Source of the DNA: Anaerolineae bacterium
GTDB taxonomy: Bacteria; Chloroflexota; Anaerolineae; JAAYZQ01
Direction of reading: 5' to 3'
DNA length: 8,081 nt
NCBI GenBank assembly: GCA_016929795.1
Contig: JAFGIA010000027.1
Span: 1-8,081, forward strand
Part shown: one piece after another, positions 166-8,081 of the stretch
How the letters are laid out: each line of letters opens with the position of its first letter
How positions within the stretch are numbered: position 1 is the stretch's first letter
Notes under the pieces: model-generated
The model's database searches: none
What the model was told of the DNA's origin: nothing
Seen by the model: only the letters and a program-made list of their open reading frames with translations
Translations under genes and position numbers: made by a program

Positions 166-247
166 CTCTGGCTGGCGGCTGCTCGGTGAGCGTCAACTGG
201 ATAAGGAACGAGTGTAACGCTTTTCTTGAGCAGAGGGGAGAATGGGG

Positions 248-3200
248 ATGCAACCGATTTGCTTTAACTGCCTATCCACAATACTGATAGTGATTCTGCT
301 CTTGGCGCCACCATTCCACGAGCTTCCACTCCAAGCCCCTCAGACGCACTCGTCGATGCCGGTGGTGATGGATCTTGATCTCGACGATACTTTGAGAGAA
401 GAGAAAGTTCAAGGCGCACCGATCTTCTTCGTCGAGAATGTCGGCCAGTTTGACGACGCGGCACGCTTTCAGGTGCGTGGCCCAGATGATGCTGTGATCT
501 GGCTGGCCGAAGATGCCTTGTGGATGACGATCCTGGAGTCGAGGGGCATGGAACCCGGCGTTCCAAGGCCGGCAGGACCTGGGGAGATGGATGAGCAGGC
601 CCAACCGCGCCAGGGCGCGCAACCCAGACTCCGCTTTGCCGGGGCCAATCCTGACCCTCAGTTGGTCCCTTTCCGCCGGCTGGACACCCGGATTTCCTAC
701 TTTCGGGGCAATGACCCGGCCCAGTGGCACGCAGACGTACCGGTGTGGGGCGGGGTGCGCTACATAGACCTCTACCCCGGCATCGATCTGGAACTGTCGG
801 GGATGAACGGCGAGTACACGCAGCGCCTCGTCATCGACGAGGGGGCCGACCTGGACGCGGTACGCATCCAGGTCGACGGGGCCGAGGCCCTGGCCCTGGA
901 TGGCAACGATCTGCGCCTGGCAACCTCGGCGGGGCAGCTCGCTCTTCCCCTCCTCGAGGTCGTGACTTCTGACGGGCGACCTGTGCATCTCGCCTCTCGC
1001 CAGCCCACACTGAGCGGGGTGGAGGTACGCGCCCCTTTTGCCATTGACGGTGCCGGCTCGCCACCGGTCTCTTCTCCATCCGCGACGGACGACAACCCGC
1101 TCGATCTCTTGTACGCGACCTTTCTCGGCGGGATGGCTGATGATGAGAGCTACAGCCCGGTTGCAGATCAGGCAGGGAGTATCTATGTGACGGGATTCAC
1201 CTTGTCTTTTGATTTCCCCACCACCCCAGGCAGCTTTGACCCGGGCTATAATGGAGGGGATACCGATCTGTATGTGGCCTGCCTCTCGCCAGATGGCAGT
1301 ACCTTGCTCTTTGTCACGTTTCTGGGCGGAAGCCGGGCGGAGTCGGGTGATGCCCTCCTACTGGATCCGGCCGATGGAACCATCCTCATCGCGGGACGAA
1401 CCAAGTCTGCAGATTTTCCCACGACATCCGATGCCTTCGATCGTTCGTGTGGGACGGATGGGGACTGCAATTTTGATGGGGAGTACTATCTCGACGATGC
1501 TGTTGTCGCGCGTCTTTCATCAGATGGAAGCACCTTGCTTGACAGCACCTATCTTGGCGGTAGTGAAAGGGATAGCGCTGCGGACCTGACGATAGACGCG
1601 CAGGACGGGATCATCTTTATCACTGGCTCGACTCAGTCTGCGGATCTGCCAACCACGCCGGGCGCAGTCGAGGGCGATTTCGTGGGCTATCAGGATGCTT
1701 TCGTTGCCGGGCTCGCTCCCAACCTCGGTACCCTGTCCTACGGCACCTACCTCGGCGGGAGTGATTTTGAGGCAGGCACCAGTCTTGTGTTTAGGCCGGT
1801 GGACCAATCCATCATCGCTGTCGGACGGACGGATTCCCCAGACTTTCCGACGACGGCGGGTGCCTTTGACACGACACTCAATGGTGTCAATGACATTTTC
1901 GTGACATGCTTTTCTCCGGACGAGGGGCGATTGATCTTTAGCACCTATCTGGGAGGGAACTTCTACCAGTATGCATTTGGCCAAAAGGCCGTGGCGCTGG
2001 ACCCGCGTGACGGGAGTGTCATCGTCGGAGGTCTCACCTGGTCGACTGACTTTCCCACGACGGATGGGGCATGGGATCAGACTTGCGGGACTGACGGTTT
2101 GTGCAACTATGATGGTGAGTGGCCGAAAAACGATGCATTCGTAACACACTTCTCTGCGGATGGAAGCACGTTGATCTACAGCACCTTTCTGGGCGGAAGT
2201 GACGGCGAATGGGCCGAGCCCATTGCCGTCGATGCAGAGGGCAGCGCCTATATCGGGGGCATCGTTTGGTCCTCTGATTTTCCTACGACGCCAGATGCTT
2301 TTGATCGGACCCACAATGGGGGCACGCCGGACGAAGGAAGGGATGGCTTTGTCACACGGCTTGCACCGGATGGGAGCGATCTCCTCTACAGTACCTTTTT
2401 GGGAGGGAGTGGGGAGGATCGTATCTGGGGGCTAGCACTGGATCCGAGTGATGGAACCGTCCTCGTAGCAGGATCGACCGATTCCTCTGACTTTCCCACC
2501 ACAGCCGGTGCCTATGGCACCACGCTACAAGGCGACTCGGATGGATTCGTGGCCCGGCTGGCAGCGGGCAGGTATTCGATCAGCGGGCGCGTGGGCGATA
2601 TCAACAACAATCCGGTCTCGGGTGTGACGATCTCGAACGGTGCCGGCGCTGTTGCCACCACCGATGGCTGGGGCCGCTTTGTCCTCACCGATGTAGGCAT
2701 GAGCGGGCACACGATTGTGCCGGCGAAAGGCAGCTACAGCTTTGTGCCTGCCAGCCGGTACATCGCGGTGCCTCCCAGCGCGACTGACCAGAACTTTGTC
2801 ATGCTGCCGGCCCCTGTCTCTGTACCGCTTACGCCGGGGGCAGCAGCAACCCTGAGCTACCAGGACACCCAGGGCCTCGTCACGCAGCTAGACTTCTCTG
2901 CCCAGGCCGTAGACCAGCCCACGGAGGTGCGGCTGACGCCCACTTTGGCCGCTGGCGCGGTTGGATATACCTTTGCCGGGCACGCCTTCCAGTTGGAGGC
3001 CTACCTGGGCGGCGTCTTGCAGCCAGGGTTCGCTTTTGGCGCGCCGGTCACCGTCACGATTCACTACAGTGATCAGGATATCCGGGTGGTGCGTGACGAA
3101 GGCCAACTAGCCTTGTGGTGGATGGGGACTGCCTGGCAGGACGCGGCAGGGACGTGTGACCCGGCGAGCACATACGACCGCAATGCCGCAGGTAATGTGC

Positions 3201-3292
3201 TGAGCGTGCCCATCTGCCACCTGAGCTTGTTCGGCCTCTTTGGGCCTACCAACCAGGTGTATCTGCCGCTCGTTCTGCGCGGGGGGCCGTAG
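248..3292 (+). CDS. Secreted SBBP-repeat beta-propeller protein with Chloroflexota-type C-terminal tail
   Basis: This 1014-residue protein is probably exported and displayed on or released from the cell; its binding partner is unknown. Residues about 12-22 form a hydrophobic signal-peptide core (ILIVILLLAPP), with possible cleavage near LQA-PQ at residue 30. Residues about 50-260 resemble the domain (DUF7948-like, motif ENVGQ at 63-67) that commonly precedes SBBP repeats. Residues 287 to about 775 are seven SBBP repeats with the signature (Y/F)STFLGGS, then G-x-S-x-DFPTT-x-x-A(F/Y). Residues about 776-853 look like a carboxypeptidase-regulatory beta-sandwich domain (SGRVGDINNNPVSGVTI). The C-terminus carries VYLPLVLR at 1004-1011, a tail I associate with Chloroflexota extracellular proteins. 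The ATG at 248 is preferred to the one at 242 because the Shine-Dalgarno AGGGGAG (234-240) is seven bases from 248 but only one from 242. An in-frame stop at 227-229 blocks further extension. The N-terminus has no Lys or Arg before the hydrophobic core, which is unusual for a Sec signal. Confidence 0.9.
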   Translation: MQPICFNCLSTILIVILLLAPPFHELPLQAPQTHSSMPVVMDLDLDDTLREEKVQGAPIFFVENVGQFDDAARFQVRGPDDAVIWLAEDALWMTILESRGMEPGVPRPAGPGEMDEQAQPRQGAQPRLRFAGANPDPQLVPFRRLDTRISYFRGNDPAQWHADVPVWGGVRYIDLYPGIDLELSGMNGEYTQRLVIDEGADLDAVRIQVDGAEALALDGNDLRLATSAGQLALPLLEVVTSDGRPVHLASRQPTLSGVEVRAPFAIDGAGSPPVSSPSATDDNPLDLLYATFLGGMADDESYSPVADQAGSIYVTGFTLSFDFPTTPGSFDPGYNGGDTDLYVACLSPDGSTLLFVTFLGGSRAESGDALLLDPADGTILIAGRTKSADFPTTSDAFDRSCGTDGDCNFDGEYYLDDAVVARLSSDGSTLLDSTYLGGSERDSAADLTIDAQDGIIFITGSTQSADLPTTPGAVEGDFVGYQDAFVAGLAPNLGTLSYGTYLGGSDFEAGTSLVFRPVDQSIIAVGRTDSPDFPTTAGAFDTTLNGVNDIFVTCFSPDEGRLIFSTYLGGNFYQYAFGQKAVALDPRDGSVIVGGLTWSTDFPTTDGAWDQTCGTDGLCNYDGEWPKNDAFVTHFSADGSTLIYSTFLGGSDGEWAEPIAVDAEGSAYIGGIVWSSDFPTTPDAFDRTHNGGTPDEGRDGFVTRLAPDGSDLLYSTFLGGSGEDRIWGLALDPSDGTVLVAGSTDSSDFPTTAGAYGTTLQGDSDGFVARLAAGRYSISGRVGDINNNPVSGVTISNGAGAVATTDGWGRFVLTDVGMSGHTIVPAKGSYSFVPASRYIAVPPSATDQNFVMLPAPVSVPLTPGAAATLSYQDTQGLVTQLDFSAQAVDQPTEVRLTPTLAAGAVGYTFAGHAFQLEAYLGGVLQPGFAFGAPVTVTIHYSDQDIRVVRDEGQLALWWMGTAWQDAAGTCDPASTYDRNAAGNVLSVPICHLSLFGLFGPTNQVYLPLVLRGGP
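1106..2572 (+). repeat. Seven tandem SBBP repeats (one predicted beta-propeller)
   Basis: Counting each unit from the (L)L-x-(Y/F)-x-TFLGG motif, repeats begin near 1106, 1304, 1535, 1733, 1931, 2171 and 2381. The core spacing is exactly 198 bases (66 residues) for repeats 1, 3 and 4. Repeats 2 and 5 are longer (231 and 240 bases) because each carries a two-cysteine insert, and repeat 6 is slightly longer (210). Seven units match the number needed to close a seven-bladed propeller. The DNA copies are diverged, so this is an old protein repeat rather than a recent DNA duplication. Confidence 0.85.
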
Positions 3293-3300
3293 GCGAGGCT

Positions 3301-3312
3301 GTTGTGCACAAC
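3301..3312. repeat. Perfect 12-bp palindrome GTTGTGCACAAC
   Basis: The 12 bases are identical to their reverse complement and lie eight bases after the stop codon of the propeller gene. There is no loop and no following T-run, so it does not look like an intrinsic terminator. It could be a protein-binding site, but a palindrome of this size can occur by chance. Confidence 0.4.
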
Positions 3313-3342
3313 GCAACCTTCCATGATCGAGAAGAGGCACTT

Positions 3343-3371
3343 TTGACGCCAAGTCAGTTTCGTGGTACAAT
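3343..3371 (+). promoter_or_regulatory. Sigma70-type promoter of the toxin-antitoxin operon
   Basis: A -35 box TTGACG (3343-3348) is followed after exactly 17 bases by a -10 box TACAAT (3366-3371). Each box is one base off the consensus and the spacing is optimal. Transcription would begin near 3378, leaving a leader of about 40 bases before the antitoxin ATG at 3417. The promoter lies in the gap after the propeller gene, so the toxin-antitoxin pair has its own transcript. Confidence 0.7.
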
Positions 3372-3405
3372 TTTGCAGAGTTTACATTTTGTACACTTTG
3401 CAAAA
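3365..3405. promoter_or_regulatory. Probable operator: nested inverted repeats overlapping the -10 box
   Basis: Two inverted repeats interleave here. TTTTGCAGAGT (3371-3381) pairs with ACTTTGCAAAA (3395-3405), 10 of 11 bases matching. GTACAA (3365-3370) pairs with TTGTAC (3389-3394). The same bases also read as three direct copies of a TACA(n)TTTTGC-like motif starting at 3366, 3383 and 3392. The cluster covers the -10 box and predicted transcription start, the expected position for repression. Phd/YefM-type antitoxins commonly repress their own operon by binding such repeats, so autoregulation by the 3417-3716 product is the natural inference. Confidence 0.6.
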
Positions 3406-3416
3406 CTGGAGGGGCG

Positions 3417-3716
3417 ATGCTCAAGACGATTTCGACAACTGAGCTGCGGGCCGAGATCAAGCGCGTGCTCAACGAGGTAGGCTACGGCCAGAGCCAATAC
3501 CTGGTGGAAAAGTTTGGCGAGCCAACGGCGGCCATTATCAACCTTGAGGATTTTCGGCTGCTGCAGGCCGTGAAGGAGCGCCAGGCGGCCGGCTCGCTGC
3601 GAGAAACGCTGGTCGGCATCCGGCAGCGGGGCGAGGAGATTGCCCCTGAAGAACTGGATGAGCTGATCGAAGAGGCGCGTACCGAGTTCTACCGCCAGGG
3701 ACGAGATGCCGCTTAG
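3417..3716 (+). CDS. Phd/YefM-family antitoxin (type II toxin-antitoxin)
   Basis: This 99-residue protein should bind and neutralise the PIN toxin encoded immediately downstream and repress the shared promoter. Residues 1 to about 57 match the Phd/YefM DNA-binding and dimerisation fold: MLKTISTTELR, then a helix (AEIKRVLNEV), then YLVEKFGEPTAAIINLEDFRLL, the usual pattern of a strand with a conserved G-x-P followed by a hydrophobic strand. Residues about 58-99 are highly charged and helical, as expected for the toxin-binding tail that is disordered when free. GGAGG at 3408-3412 lies four bases before the ATG and is a strong ribosome binding site. The gene overlaps the toxin gene by 11 bases, so the two are likely translated in a coupled way with antitoxin first. 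Family assignment is by motif pattern; the exact subfamily is uncertain. Confidence 0.88.
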   Translation: MLKTISTTELRAEIKRVLNEVGYGQSQYLVEKFGEPTAAIINLEDFRLLQAVKERQAAGSLRETLVGIRQRGEEIAPEELDELIEEARTEFYRQGRDAA

Positions 3717-4140
3717 GGCGTTGCTCGACACGAACGTGCTGGTGAGCGGGCTAATCGGCCGCGCCGGCCCGCCGCGCGAGCTCCTGGATGCCTGGCTCGA
3801 TGGGTGCTACATCCTGGTTACCTCGCTCTACCAGGTCCAGGAGCTCAATCACGTCCTGTCCTCCCCGCGGATCGCCGAGCGGCTGGCAGTGACCGGGCCA
3901 GAGCTCGACACAATCCTGGCCACGATGCTATCACAGGCCGAAGTGGTCGTGGCACAGCTCGATCTATCGGGGGTGACGCGCGATCCCAAGGATGATCCGC
4001 TGGTGGCCGCGGCCGTGCTGGGGGAGGTCGACTACCTGGTGAGCGGCGATCAGGATCTGTTGGTGTTGGAAGAGTACGAAGGGGTGAAGGTCACCACGCC
4101 CGGGGAATTTGTCGAGATCCTCAACTTTCACCCGAAGTAG
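3706..4140 (+). CDS. PIN-domain ribonuclease toxin (COG1569-like)
   Basis: The 144-residue protein has the single-domain length and motifs of the PIN-family toxins annotated as 'putative toxin-antitoxin system toxin component' (COG1569-like), metal-dependent ribonucleases related to VapC. The acidic residues expected in the active site are visible: D8 in LLDTNVLVSG, E46 in the helix after TSLYQVQELN, D97 in RDPKDDPLVAAAV and D115 in YLVSGDQDLL. D117 is also available. All key positions are present, so the toxin should be active. The start ATG lies inside the antitoxin gene, preceded by AGGGA at 3697-3701. The RNA target cannot be read from sequence. Next to a defence operon, it could help retain the locus or act as an abortive-infection effector; that role is inference. 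Confidence 0.9.
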   Translation: MPLRALLDTNVLVSGLIGRAGPPRELLDAWLDGCYILVTSLYQVQELNHVLSSPRIAERLAVTGPELDTILATMLSQAEVVVAQLDLSGVTRDPKDDPLVAAAVLGEVDYLVSGDQDLLVLEEYEGVKVTTPGEFVEILNFHPK

Positions 4141-4192
4141 TCAATAGGTTTCCAGCCGGGAAGGACACGCCAGATGCTGCCCATGGTGGGAA

Positions 4193-4209
4193 TGCAAGTG
4201 AATTGCAAG
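4193..4209. repeat. Short direct repeat TGCAAG x2 in the intergenic gap
   Basis: TGCAAG occurs at 4193-4198 and again at 4204-4209, an 11-base period that would place both copies on the same face of the helix. They lie about 50 bases upstream of the ATPase start, where a promoter or operator for the defence operon would be expected. I cannot find a convincing -35/-10 pair in 4141-4256, and two six-base copies may be chance. Confidence 0.25.
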
Positions 4210-4256
4210 CAGTGTGGTCCGATCACGGGGGATTCGATGATTGAAAGGAGTAACCG

Positions 4257-5552
4257 ATGATACGCCGGGTTCATATCCAGGGTTACAAGTCGCTAGAGGA
4301 TATCGACATCAATCTAGCGCCGTTGACCATCGTGATAGGTCCCAATGCCGCAGGGAAGAGCAACCTGCTCGATGCACTCGGCCTGTTGAGTAGAATGGTA
4401 ACCAGCAATACGCTGAAAGAGGCATTTGGCGAGCACCGTGGAGTCCCTCTGGAAGCCTTTCACTTCGGCGAACAGGGCGTAGAAGGGTTGCTAGTTCAGG
4501 ATTCGGTACAGTTCGCCATCGAAGTCGACGTTGAGCTGTCCGATGACGTCGTGGAGACTGTCGAACAGCGCATTCAGCTAATGCGTGAGGGATTGCCGGA
4601 GCGCGAAACTGAGACAGAGCCGGTACGCAAACGTGTGCTGGAGAGGTTGCTTCGCTACTCGTTGACTGTGCAGATGATGATTGATACAGGCTATCTGCGT
4701 GTCCTGGACGAGACGCTGATCGCGCTGAACCAGGATGGCACCCCCAGAGCGTCGCGCAGAGCATTTGTGGAGCGGATGGGCGATCGGCTAAAGTTGCGCA
4801 TGGAGGGTCAGGCGCGCCCTACCGAGCACGAGGTTGGCCTGGACTATACGCTTGTGTCTCGACCGCTATATCCACCGCATTATCCACACGTGACTGCTTT
4901 CAAAGAGGAGCTTTCCCGCTGGCATTTTTACTACTTGGAGCCCAAGTCAATGCGAGCTGAATCCCCTTTGAAAGAGATTGAGTATTTGGCGCCGTTCGGC
5001 GGCGACCTTGCTGCCTTCTACAATACCTTGAAAGCCAAGAACCCACGCCAGTACAATGCTCTCAACCGAGCTTTGCGTACACTGATACCAGGGTTGGAAG
5101 GATTCGACGTGGAGCGCACACGAGAGGGGTTCCTCCAACTCAGGGTTCTCGAAGGCGGCACACCATTTGCTGCGCGGATCGTGTCCGAGGGCACGCTACG
5201 CATCTTGGGACTACTGGCCATTACGGTCTCCTTGTCGCCCACCACGGTGGTTGGCTACGAAGAGCCAGAGAACGGGGTTCACCCACGGCGGCTAAAGCTG
5301 ATTTCCGATTTGTTGGAGAATGCAGCCGAGTCGGGGAAGCAGATTATCGTCAACACCCACTCGCCCCAGTTGCCCGGCTACTTTCACGATGCCCTCCTGT
5401 TAATCTGTCGCCGGGACGGGCGCAGCACAATATTCACACCATCTCCCCCTCTACTTCAGCAGATGGATATCGAACAAGCGCTAGAAGACGGAGCAGAGTA
5501 CGAGATGACACCGCTGCGGGAACGAATCGTCAGGGGTGACTATGGTGGCTGA
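4257..5552 (+). CDS. OLD/RecF-like AAA (ABC-type) ATPase, probable defence sensor subunit
   Basis: This 431-residue protein is a predicted ATPase of the AAA_21/AAA_15 type, related to OLD, RecF and the AriA subunit of PARIS. The N-terminus (IRRVHIQGYKSLEDIDINLAPLTIVIGPNAAGKSNLLDAL) is typical and holds the Walker A motif at residues 28-35. An ABC-type signature SEGT is at 310-313, Walker B runs into E335-E336 (GYEEPENGVHP), and the switch histidine is H368 in NTHSP. All ATPase motifs are present. The middle (about 75-290) is a variable, charged helical insertion without a domain I recognise. Unlike single-chain OLD nucleases it has no C-terminal TOPRIM; the next gene supplies that as a separate protein. 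AAAGGAG at 4244-4250 sits six bases before the ATG. The gene overlaps the TOPRIM gene by 11 bases. By analogy with AriA the ATPase may hold an effector inactive until phage infection; this is inferred from architecture only. Confidence 0.88.
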   Translation: MIRRVHIQGYKSLEDIDINLAPLTIVIGPNAAGKSNLLDALGLLSRMVTSNTLKEAFGEHRGVPLEAFHFGEQGVEGLLVQDSVQFAIEVDVELSDDVVETVEQRIQLMREGLPERETETEPVRKRVLERLLRYSLTVQMMIDTGYLRVLDETLIALNQDGTPRASRRAFVERMGDRLKLRMEGQARPTEHEVGLDYTLVSRPLYPPHYPHVTAFKEELSRWHFYYLEPKSMRAESPLKEIEYLAPFGGDLAAFYNTLKAKNPRQYNALNRALRTLIPGLEGFDVERTREGFLQLRVLEGGTPFAARIVSEGTLRILGLLAITVSLSPTTVVGYEEPENGVHPRRLKLISDLLENAAESGKQIIVNTHSPQLPGYFHDALLLICRRDGRSTIFTPSPPLLQQMDIEQALEDGAEYEMTPLRERIVRGDYGG

Positions 5553-6192
5553 GATCCGAGTGGGGTATTTTCTTGAAGATGTAGCACAAGAGGCTTTTGT
5601 TGTGGGTCTGGTGGAGCGCATCGCAGACGAGATAGATCTCTTGGGGCACTCGTTAACACATGATACACGAAGCGCGACCGGTGGGCTTGGAACAGTGATG
5701 AGCAACTTGCGGCGTTTTTTGCGAGATGTCCATCGTGAGAATGATCGGGCTTTTGATGCATTGGTGGTTGCGCTAGACGCAAATTGCCACGGCTACCAGG
5801 ATAGACGTAACGAGATCGCACACGTAGTGGAGCAAGTACATTATCCAGGACTCTACGCCTGTGCAATCCCGGATCCACACATGGAGCGTTGGTATCTGGC
5901 AGATCCACAGGCACTGGAGCAGACCATCTCTGCTGCGATTTCGGTGGAGGTCCTGTCTTACAAATGCGAAAGGGGACGCTACAAGAACGCTCTGCGCCAG
6001 GCTTTTCGCCAGGCAGGGATCATGGCTCCGCTCGGTGGCGCCGAATATGGGCAGGACATCGCTGCACACATCGATCTGTACGCAGTTGGCAAGGTGGACG
6101 CCGGATTTCGTCACTTTGCAGATGAGATCCGGTCCGCTCTCGCTCTGTGTGCGAGGGCAGGACGCGATGCCGACGTGACACCATCTCGCTAG
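5542..6192 (+). CDS. TOPRIM-like protein resembling DUF4276, partner of the ATPase
   Basis: This 216-residue protein most resembles DUF4276, a TOPRIM-related family often encoded next to AAA ATPases. The pattern is a first strand ending in acidic residues (VGYFLEDVAQEAF, E12 and E17), a second strand with D79 (ALVVALDANCHGY) and a third segment AIPDPHMERWYLADP with E115-x-W117 and D121. TOPRIM folds use a Glu and a D-x-D pair to bind Mg2+; here the pair reads D79-A-N81, so the second Asp is missing or supplied from elsewhere. Partnership with the preceding ATPase follows from the 11-base overlap. I choose ATG 5542 over GTG 5536 because AGGGG at 5532-5536 is five bases upstream of the ATG. By analogy with AriB of PARIS it may be a nuclease effector released by the ATPase. 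The family call is from motif memory, and a DUF4435-like relation is the main alternative. Confidence 0.72.
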   Translation: MVAEIRVGYFLEDVAQEAFVVGLVERIADEIDLLGHSLTHDTRSATGGLGTVMSNLRRFLRDVHRENDRAFDALVVALDANCHGYQDRRNEIAHVVEQVHYPGLYACAIPDPHMERWYLADPQALEQTISAAISVEVLSYKCERGRYKNALRQAFRQAGIMAPLGGAEYGQDIAAHIDLYAVGKVDAGFRHFADEIRSALALCARAGRDADVTPSR

Positions 6193-6198
6193 AGGAGG
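6192..6198 (+). promoter_or_regulatory. Ribosome binding site of pglZ, overlapping the upstream stop codon
   Basis: GAGGAGG starts on the last base of the TAG stop (6190-6192) of the TOPRIM gene and lies nine bases before the pglZ ATG at 6208. It is a near-perfect Shine-Dalgarno sequence and fixes the pglZ start. Ribosomes ending the TOPRIM gene stop directly on this site, which supports coupled expression. Confidence 0.75.
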
Positions 6199-6207
6199 CG
6201 GCGCACA

Positions 6208-8081
6208 ATGCTCATCCACGCCCTGGCAGAGCGGTTTGCCCGATACTTTGCCCAGAACTCAACTCATGATACGGTCATCTGGTTCGATCCAGATCAGGAG
6301 TACGCCGGGCTGCTGGATCACCTGACTACCGCATCGCTGTGGCGCTACAACGGCAGCTTGCTCGCGCTCCGCCACCGGCTCATCCACCGCACACCCGGCG
6401 AGCGGGCCGTGGTCTACCTACCGATGGACAAGGAGGATGCCGACCTGCTCCGCCCCTTCTTTGCCACGAGCGACTGCTTCCGCGACCGCCTGTACCGCTT
6501 TCTGCGTCACCAGGGCCTGGCCTTTCCGGACGATCCGAACGTCGATCATCAACTGCGCCAGCTTTTGCCCCAGCTCGCCGTGCGTTCTGTCGGCAAGGGA
6601 CGGCAGTTCTGGGAGTACAACCTGGCGAACCTGGAGCGGGCGGTCAACACGTTGCTCGGCGAGTTCGAAGGTGCCCTGCTACGCTTTTTGGACGATCCGA
6701 CAAGAGAGCTGACGCGCTTGCGCCAGGATCAGTTTGAGCAGCTCTTTTTCGCCGAGCTCGCCGGCGCATACGGTTTGCAGGCGACATCCGATGACGATCC
6801 TGACGTCGTGGCGCGCGATCTGACAGCCGAGCTGGCCCTCGCCCGCGCCTACACCGACGCGGGACAGCCGGCCGATTTTCCCTTTCGTGACCGCCTGCCG
6901 CAGCCGCACCAGGTCGACCGCTGCCTCGGCTTTCTCGACCGCTGGCAGCACGACGCGCGCTATGCGCCCGCCTACGCGCGCCTGGCAGAGAAGGCCGGGC
7001 GGCTCTACAGCCTGGACAACTGGCTGGAGTCGCTGCCGCTGGCCGATGCACTCCAGTTGGGCGCCACCTTTCCCGACGTCGAGGCGGTGCTCTGGGCACG
7101 GCTGCAGGGTGCCCTCGCCGGTCTGAGGAGCGAGGCTGACTGGAGCGAGTGGCTGGCCGCGCACCGGCACGCAATCGCGGCGCGTGCCGGTGGGTTCTGG
7201 GCTGCCCACGGTCGTGATCCAGGCTGGCAGGTGCTCGTGCAGGCGGCGGACCTCTTGCGCGAGATCGAGCAAATGGGGCGTGCATTGCCCCAGGTGTCGC
7301 GCCCTGGCGACATGCTGCAGCGCTACGCGCGCGATGGGTGGCGCGTCGACGCGGCCTACCGTGCCTTCCGCTTGGCCCTGTCCATGGCGTCTGGCGGGCT
7401 TGACCCGGTCCGCGACCGCTGCGCCCGGTCGTACGCCGACGCGCTGCGGGCCGCCAACGAGCGGTTTAGCGAGCTCCTCCAGTCGGAGCTGGCATGGCCG
7501 CCGGCGGGCGCGCTGCCCGCCCAGGACCGCTTCTGGGCAGAGGCTGTCGGCTCGTCGCAGAAGGGAAAACCGTTCGCCGTGCTCTTTGTCGACGCGCTGC
7601 GCTACGAGCTGTCGGAGGAACTACTGGCGCAGTTGGAGGCGGACCGGGCGGGTGATAGCCGGGCGTTGGAAGCGCGCCTGGCGACCATTCCAACGGTGAC
7701 CCCGCTCGGCATGGCAGCGCTCCTGCCTGACGGGCACCAGCGCCGGGTGTCTCACGATGGGCAGTGGCACGTGCACATCCGCGACAGTGGCGACCTGGCC
7801 AGCAAGCAGGCGCGGATCGACTGGCTGGCAGGCTGCCTCGCCGGCTGCGAGACGGCTTTTTACAATCTGAACGACCTGCTCGACACACCGGCCGACCGCC
7901 TCGACCTGGTGGACTGCACCGTCGTGTTCGACACCACACTGGACGCCGTGGGCGAGAACGCCGACATCCTGGCCTGGGACGCCTTCGAGCCCCTGATCCG
8001 CTCCGTGAAGCAGGGCGTGCACAAGTTGCTCGACCGCGGCGTGGAGACGGTGCACGTGGTGACCGACCACGGCTTTTTGCT
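6208..8081 (+). CDS. pglZ: BREX-type PglZ, alkaline-phosphatase-superfamily protein (3' end outside window)
   Basis: The visible part is 624 residues, open to the window edge. PglZ is a core BREX (bacteriophage exclusion) protein with an alkaline-phosphatase-like PglZ domain, needed for defence and, in studied systems, host DNA methylation. The N-terminal region has the typical VIWFDPDQEY strand (about 23-32) and a second strand, AVVYLP. Residues about 45-450 are a helical middle region rich in Arg, Leu and Ala. The PglZ domain starts near 455: VLFVDALRYEL puts a probable metal ligand at D462, IPTVTPLGMAALLP holds T498, a likely nucleophile by analogy with PorX-type PglZ domains, and VVTDHGFL gives D620-H621-G622, a second metal-binding motif. 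BREX PglZ proteins are usually above 800 residues as I recall, so roughly the last quarter is missing. It lies 15 bases after the TOPRIM gene and is much richer in GC than the two genes before it. The BREX subtype cannot be assigned from this fragment. Confidence 0.9.
   Translation, partial: MLIHALAERFARYFAQNSTHDTVIWFDPDQEYAGLLDHLTTASLWRYNGSLLALRHRLIHRTPGERAVVYLPMDKEDADLLRPFFATSDCFRDRLYRFLRHQGLAFPDDPNVDHQLRQLLPQLAVRSVGKGRQFWEYNLANLERAVNTLLGEFEGALLRFLDDPTRELTRLRQDQFEQLFFAELAGAYGLQATSDDDPDVVARDLTAELALARAYTDAGQPADFPFRDRLPQPHQVDRCLGFLDRWQHDARYAPAYARLAEKAGRLYSLDNWLESLPLADALQLGATFPDVEAVLWARLQGALAGLRSEADWSEWLAAHRHAIAARAGGFWAAHGRDPGWQVLVQAADLLREIEQMGRALPQVSRPGDMLQRYARDGWRVDAAYRAFRLALSMASGGLDPVRDRCARSYADALRAANERFSELLQSELAWPPAGALPAQDRFWAEAVGSSQKGKPFAVLFVDALRYELSEELLAQLEADRAGDSRALEARLATIPTVTPLGMAALLPDGHQRRVSHDGQWHVHIRDSGDLASKQARIDWLAGCLAGCETAFYNLNDLLDTPADRLDLVDCTVVFDTTLDAVGENADILAWDAFEPLIRSVKQGVHKLLDRGVETVHVVTDHGFL

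Follow-up and report, generated by a model that had tools for sequence, protein, structure and literature searches.

A mobile, HEC-01-type abortive-infection cassette has probably been gained just upstream of a BREX-1-type pglZ gene in the stretch of DNA analyzed here (8,081 nucleotides; "the window"). The cassette consists of a gene for a standalone OLD-family ABC ATPase, a putative sensor or scaffold (4257 to 5552, plus strand), and a gene for a DUF4276 protein with a putative TOPRIM-like fold, a putative nuclease effector (5542 to 6192, plus strand), which appear to be translationally coupled. Both genes rank HEC-01 models first, and this reading also draws on the variable defense-like cargo found before pglZ in related loci, the lower GC3 of the pair and published counts of similar riders. 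The lack of pglX or brxC upstream and the low scores of the DUF4276 protein against its family models count against it.

The gene junctions are tight. The listed start of the DUF4276 open reading frame is a GTG at 5536, with an in-frame ATG at 5542; the overlap with the ATPase gene is 11 nt from that ATG or 8 nt from a GTG at 5545, either of which could be the start. The stop codon (TAG, 6190 to 6192) is followed immediately by a 15-nt spacer (6193 to 6207, plus strand), read from the sequence as a ribosome-binding site (AGGAGG, 6193 to 6198) and 9 further nucleotides, and then by the pglZ ATG at 6208. The first-pass annotation of this DNA had described these open reading frames, the 11-base overlap (from the ATG at 5542), the 15-base gap and the ribosome-binding site touching the TOPRIM stop codon correctly. 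Its placement of the DNA in a probable Chloroflexota genome also agrees with the closest organism-named relatives of the window proteins, which were Anaerolineae and Chloroflexi genomes among the matches listed.

To describe relatives of the pair, we took the best 80 of the 107 loci confirmed in one genome scan. The ATPase and its partner were called as separate adjacent open reading frames in 78 of them; the overlap count leaves out L047, whose partner was not called separately, and L051, which has no adjacent ATPase. With the partner's start set, by our choice, at whichever start codon lies closest to the stop of the ATPase gene, the two genes overlapped by 8 nt in 63 of the 78 loci and by 11 nt in 6. 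Since these two overlaps prevail among relatives, the pair's coupling is a conserved trait.

The ATPase matched AAA_21 in Pfam (105 bits; cutoff, 27), and its best match of 126 PADLOC families was HEC-01A (207.5 bits). A profile of 47 sequences found the OLD nuclease 6p74 as its best match among solved structures (3.4e-17), and the predicted model (pLDDT, 90.4) resembled SMC, Rad50 and PtuA. The Walker A, signature and Walker B motifs (GKSN, SEGTLR and EEPENG) are invariant, with G33, K34, S35, E335, E336 and P337 present in 47/47 aligned sequences, as is characteristic of an OLD-family ABC ATPase.

The partner scored 27 bits against DUF4276 in Pfam, just under the cutoff of 30.2, although the precomputed Pfam annotation assigns PF14103.12 to this very protein. 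In PADLOC it matched HEC-01B models only, and weakly (20.8 bits; E value, 6.2e-5). Canonical TOPRIM domains carry a Glu after strand 1 and a DxD motif after the central strand. In the partner alignment, E12 and D79 were present in 61/61 sequences, whereas position 16 is mostly Q or H and position 81 is N in 45 and D in 16 of the 61, where canonical TOPRIM acids are expected. Because these two expected acids are mostly replaced, catalysis by the partner is uncertain, and we refer to it as a putative nuclease by analogy. Foldseek returned no fold match for the partner with an E value of ≤0.001; AriB was absent from the fold lists, which counts neither way.

The first-pass annotation had called the pair PARIS-like. 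The OLD-type ATPase bears this out in part: it matched the AriA profile with 100.8 bits and the AriA structure 8ux9 with 2.9e-7, and PARIS likewise consists of a separate OLD-type ATPase and a TOPRIM-like partner, with the same gene order and overlapping genes, that can sit inside BREX (PMC11341690, cited here and below from excerpts). That the pair is a divergent PARIS system is nevertheless very improbable. The ATPase scores twice as high with HEC-01A as with AriA, and the partner is a DUF4276 protein, as the first-pass annotation had itself suspected, whereas the PARIS partner AriB is a DUF4435 protein, a family without any match in the window. DUF4435 occurs at 20 places in 18 of 396 genomes of the class to which the related pair locus L001 belongs, none of them on a contig with PglZ in that class. 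An hhalign comparison of the partner profile with eight DUF4435 proteins from this class gave a probability of 0.25%, and alignment of the two ATPase profiles was confined to an ATPase core of 80 columns (probability, 98.9%). Seven of these eight controls adjoin the ATPase genes used in the alignment, and the eighth (L176) adjoins a 333-amino-acid open reading frame; one control pair (L158) scored as AriA/AriB in PADLOC (AriB, 101 bits). The profile comparisons thus connect the ATPase to OLD and AriA but leave the partner unconnected to DUF4435. We also rejected MADS: the ATPase matches MAD3 and the partner matches MAD4, but both scores fall far below the equivalog cutoffs (142.4 versus 420 bits and 16.3 versus 160 bits, respectively), and a literature search on MADS yielded nothing useful.

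HEC-01 (PADLOC Hma-embedded candidate 1; the meaning of HEC is given in excerpts of PMC12988326 and PMC10855318) resembles the window pair more closely. Three relatives tested in PADLOC (L001, L034 and L036) scored as HEC-01 for both proteins, the relatives share the gene order and overlap, and DUF499 and/or DUF1156 genes accompany the pair in 15 of the best 80 of 107 loci (the queries being drawn from four of those 15). Such genes belong to the BREX-related (BR), or Hma, systems described in excerpts of PMC12839542. The window differs in that the neighbor is a BREX-1-type pglZ; no DUF499 or DUF1156 was found among the six window proteins scanned, the 3' side of pglZ lying beyond the contig. 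A Pfam scan of 20 neighbor proteins from 14 of the relatives' loci identified 7 as DUF499/DUF1156 genes and most of the others as metabolic or housekeeping genes; the remainder included a HEPN/nucleotidyltransferase protein (L007), a CHAT protein (L071) and one protein without a family (L062). In L002, a Pkinase/PASTA gene (1877 to 3805) begins 4 nt before the DUF4276 gene ends, so a close-packed downstream neighbor is no special feature of pglZ. Two genes past the same pair lies an FtsH-like protease gene (L002, 4012 to 7167) that seems to contain an intein (matches to Intein_splicing and LAGLIDADG_3).

The first-pass annotation had proposed that the pair guards or reports on BREX function, and the tight spacing to pglZ could indeed suggest a dedicated guard that evolved together with pglZ and is triggered by phage blockage of BREX. 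PARIS in BREX and the logic of Ocr offer a precedent (excerpts of PMC12839542 and PMC11341690), and the 15 relatives that ride DUF499 systems, with an ATPase closely paralleling BrxC (PMC12839542, in part), could be read the same way. We nonetheless consider a dedicated guard improbable, given that conservation lends no support to a specific relation to pglZ. Profile searches of the visible flanking DNA found no PglZ, BrxC, BrxA, BrxB or BrxL at any of the best 80 of 107 pair loci (at least 1 kb of downstream DNA was visible in 71 of 78 loci and at least 5 kb in 49), so that the recurrence of such pairs directly upstream of pglZ was not borne out; two loci (L003 and L072) had PglX-like methylases, on the opposite strand. 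Any PglZ match occurred in only 6 of the 39 pair-bearing genomes searched with PF08665, which came from 40 of the 80 loci. Conversely, 13 of 33 PglZ genomes had DUF4276 matches at 21 places, none on a contig with a listed PglZ place, which is weak evidence in such fragmented genomes. Excerpts of PMC11341690 also report that supplying Ocr or a homologue in Salmonella elicited no PARIS activity and that deleting ariA or ariB there raised defense against phage TB34 10-fold.

Relatives of the pair were found in 12 of 400 genomes in a phylum-wide draw (E value below 1e-50 in 7), and a search for relatives of ORF2 in plasmids gave no match.

The window pglZ (6208 to 8081, plus strand) has lost its 3' end at the contig end. 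Its product matched PF08665 (53.1 bits; cutoff, 25), and the partial protein scored 108 bits against the type A equivalog TIGR02687, short of the cutoff of 270.35; PglZ is reported, in excerpts of PMC12205998, to act as a metal-dependent nuclease. The closest PglZ relatives among the matches listed (120 of 208) are 72% and 66% identical to it, with the alignment covering 100% of the query. Within the class of L001, 28 of 396 genomes have PglZ relatives; none were confirmed in viral contigs, and the family of genome G204 (4 genomes) contained no new PglZ loci. In L126, a 223-amino-acid frame (2341 to 3012) that matches only N-terminal PglZ (residues 2 to 167) adjoins a DUF234/ATPase_2 gene and is perhaps a BREX remnant.

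On long enough contigs of this class, the gene order is brxC, pglX, optional cargo, pglZ and brxL. The cargo just upstream of pglZ varies, with TIR, Schlafen, NERD-kinase, GmrSD, Fic (twice), DUF3800 and HEPN proteins, an M78/HTH protein, a hydrolase-like protein and an IS200-type transposase (in the NERD-kinase and HEPN cases, pglX would lie beyond the contig end). Nine loci have pglX directly before pglZ (L124, L130, L131, L137, L138, L145, L147, L149 and L152). In published counts, too, this slot is often filled, though seldom by PARIS: excerpts of PMC11341690 list ~9,000 genomes with co-located pglZ and pglX, ~7,000 of them with one or more genes between BREX components, and PARIS in 2.21% of about 2,000 with a known system.

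The remainder of the BREX core is missing from view. The first-pass annotation's BREX-embedded module stands as far as pglZ adjoins the pair, but a profile search for pglX, brxC, brxA and brxB found none in the 6.2 kb upstream of pglZ. Every second one of the 120 listed proteins (of 208), including the window's own, went into the PglZ profile together with three plasmid PglZ proteins, and the other BREX profiles drew on the three annotated plasmid loci alone; BREX loci of the class served as positive controls and were recovered by these profiles. All 11 comparable loci, those with PglZ above 200 bits and 6.2 kb or more of upstream DNA in view, have pglX before pglZ, at a distance of -52 to 1827 nt. 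These come from 35 PglZ loci, 20 with pglX in view. We left out 23 with less than 6.2 kb visible upstream, of which 9 have pglX and 14 do not (all 14 with less than 2.4 kb visible, and three with PglZ of only 21 to 29 bits), and L153 (PglZ, 36.8 bits; 8.4 kb visible; no pglX), whose inclusion would make the count 11/12. Because neither pglX nor brxC is present in the 6.2 kb upstream, the window does not actually display the usual order of pglX, cargo and pglZ. Either this BREX locus is incomplete, rearranged or misjoined, or the core of it is to be found downstream, past the contig end.

These observations bear on a second alternative, namely, that the pair and pglZ abut through a rearrangement, an orphan pglZ or an assembly join and have no functional link. 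The invariable pglX of the comparable loci points this way, as do the truncation of pglZ by the contig end, the genes upstream (a toxin-antitoxin [TA] pair and a beta-propeller protein) and the jump in GC3 between the partner gene (0.54) and pglZ (0.80). Similarly, a by-eye comparison of the longest contigs of the listed relatives (89 entries; for PglZ, 120 of 208) revealed no second contig with both proteins, the only length common to both lists being the window's own 8,081. Yet the 15-nt gap, the ribosome-binding site directly behind the stop codon and a pglZ start matching that of relatives whose alignments cover 100% of the query have the look of a true operon junction, and we regard an incidental neighborhood as a real but minority prospect.

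The GC3 values of the ATPase and DUF4276 genes (0.64 and 0.54) are lower than those of the PIN gene (0.83) and pglZ (0.80 to 0.86), as might be expected if the cassette had been acquired. Because a comparable spread is seen among core genes of other BREX loci (in L127, 0.55 for pglX and 0.70 for pglZ), and the window's SBBP gene is at 0.68, this dip is only weakly suggestive. A repeat search of 3300 to 6400 found no repeat flanking the pair that would mark an insertion scar; it returned only three imperfect inverted repeats and one 16-nt direct repeat, whose two copies both fall within the PIN gene.

Upstream of the pair lie genes for a Phd/YefM-like antitoxin (3417 to 3716, plus strand; PF02604, 33.6 bits; cutoff, 29.8), which is not clearly part of the system, and a PIN-domain toxin, a putative endoRNase (3706 to 4140, plus strand; PF13470, 62.4 bits; TIGR00305, 68.7 bits). 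The two overlap by 11 nt, end 116 nt before the ATPase gene and share the strand of the pair and pglZ. A scan of 3250 to 6400 found two promoter-like sites (1.3 expected), none of them between the TA and ATPase pairs, and no terminator-like site (2.3 expected); the TA pair could share a transcript with the ATPase/DUF4276 pair and pglZ. A PIN relative was found in 1 of the best 80 of 107 pair loci (L062, ~6 kb from the pair) and in 1 of 35 PglZ loci (L139), and an antitoxin relative in none of either set. Another TA rider is seen in a Planktothrix plasmid BREX locus, where an annotated VapC-type toxin gene (L081, 11614 to 12303) lies between brxC and pglX. Further upstream in the window, a 1,016-amino-acid DUF7948/SBBP beta-propeller protein (242 to 3292; Pfam scan) has a hydrophobic N terminus by eye and a C terminus scoring 11.8 bits against the YLP-type sorting motif, below the cutoff of 15; we saw no link of this protein to BREX.

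In our preferred reading of a mobile HEC-01-type cassette, the pair is probably a phage sensor with a nucleic-acid-cutting partner, by analogy with AriA/AriB in PARIS. The ATPase would sense a phage trigger and hold or license the partner, which would then cut nucleic acid and stop growth, and the cassette probably shares a transcript with pglZ. It may serve as a backup when BREX fails, as proposed in excerpts of PMC12839542 for OLD-TOPRIM riders of BREX, which have the same two-part design and BREX-side location; there, OLD-ABC ATPases with nucleases are counted in at least 1,242 BREX/BR taxa and read as backup effectors. If the cassette is such a rider, its adjacency to pglZ would reflect use of an accessory-gene slot and not a dedicated partnership. 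Two further ideas, together about as doubtful as a dedicated guard, are that the TA pair, the HEC-01-type pair and pglZ form a compact defense operon without pglX or that this subfamily is a portable sensor of shared BrxC/DUF499-type machinery and hence travels with BREX and BREX-related systems alike.

Similar riders have been described before for BREX-like systems, and in the literature searched we found no paper naming DUF4276, DUF4276 with BREX, or HEC-01 with PADLOC. If the arrangement is real, it puts an OLD pair of the DUF4276 type, which in the other loci analyzed stands away from BREX or together with DUF499 systems, directly in front of a BREX pglZ. It would support the idea that pairs of an OLD ATPase and a nuclease are backup effectors that can replace one another and move between BREX and BREX-related loci, and it would provide a test pair for whether such riders need their host system.
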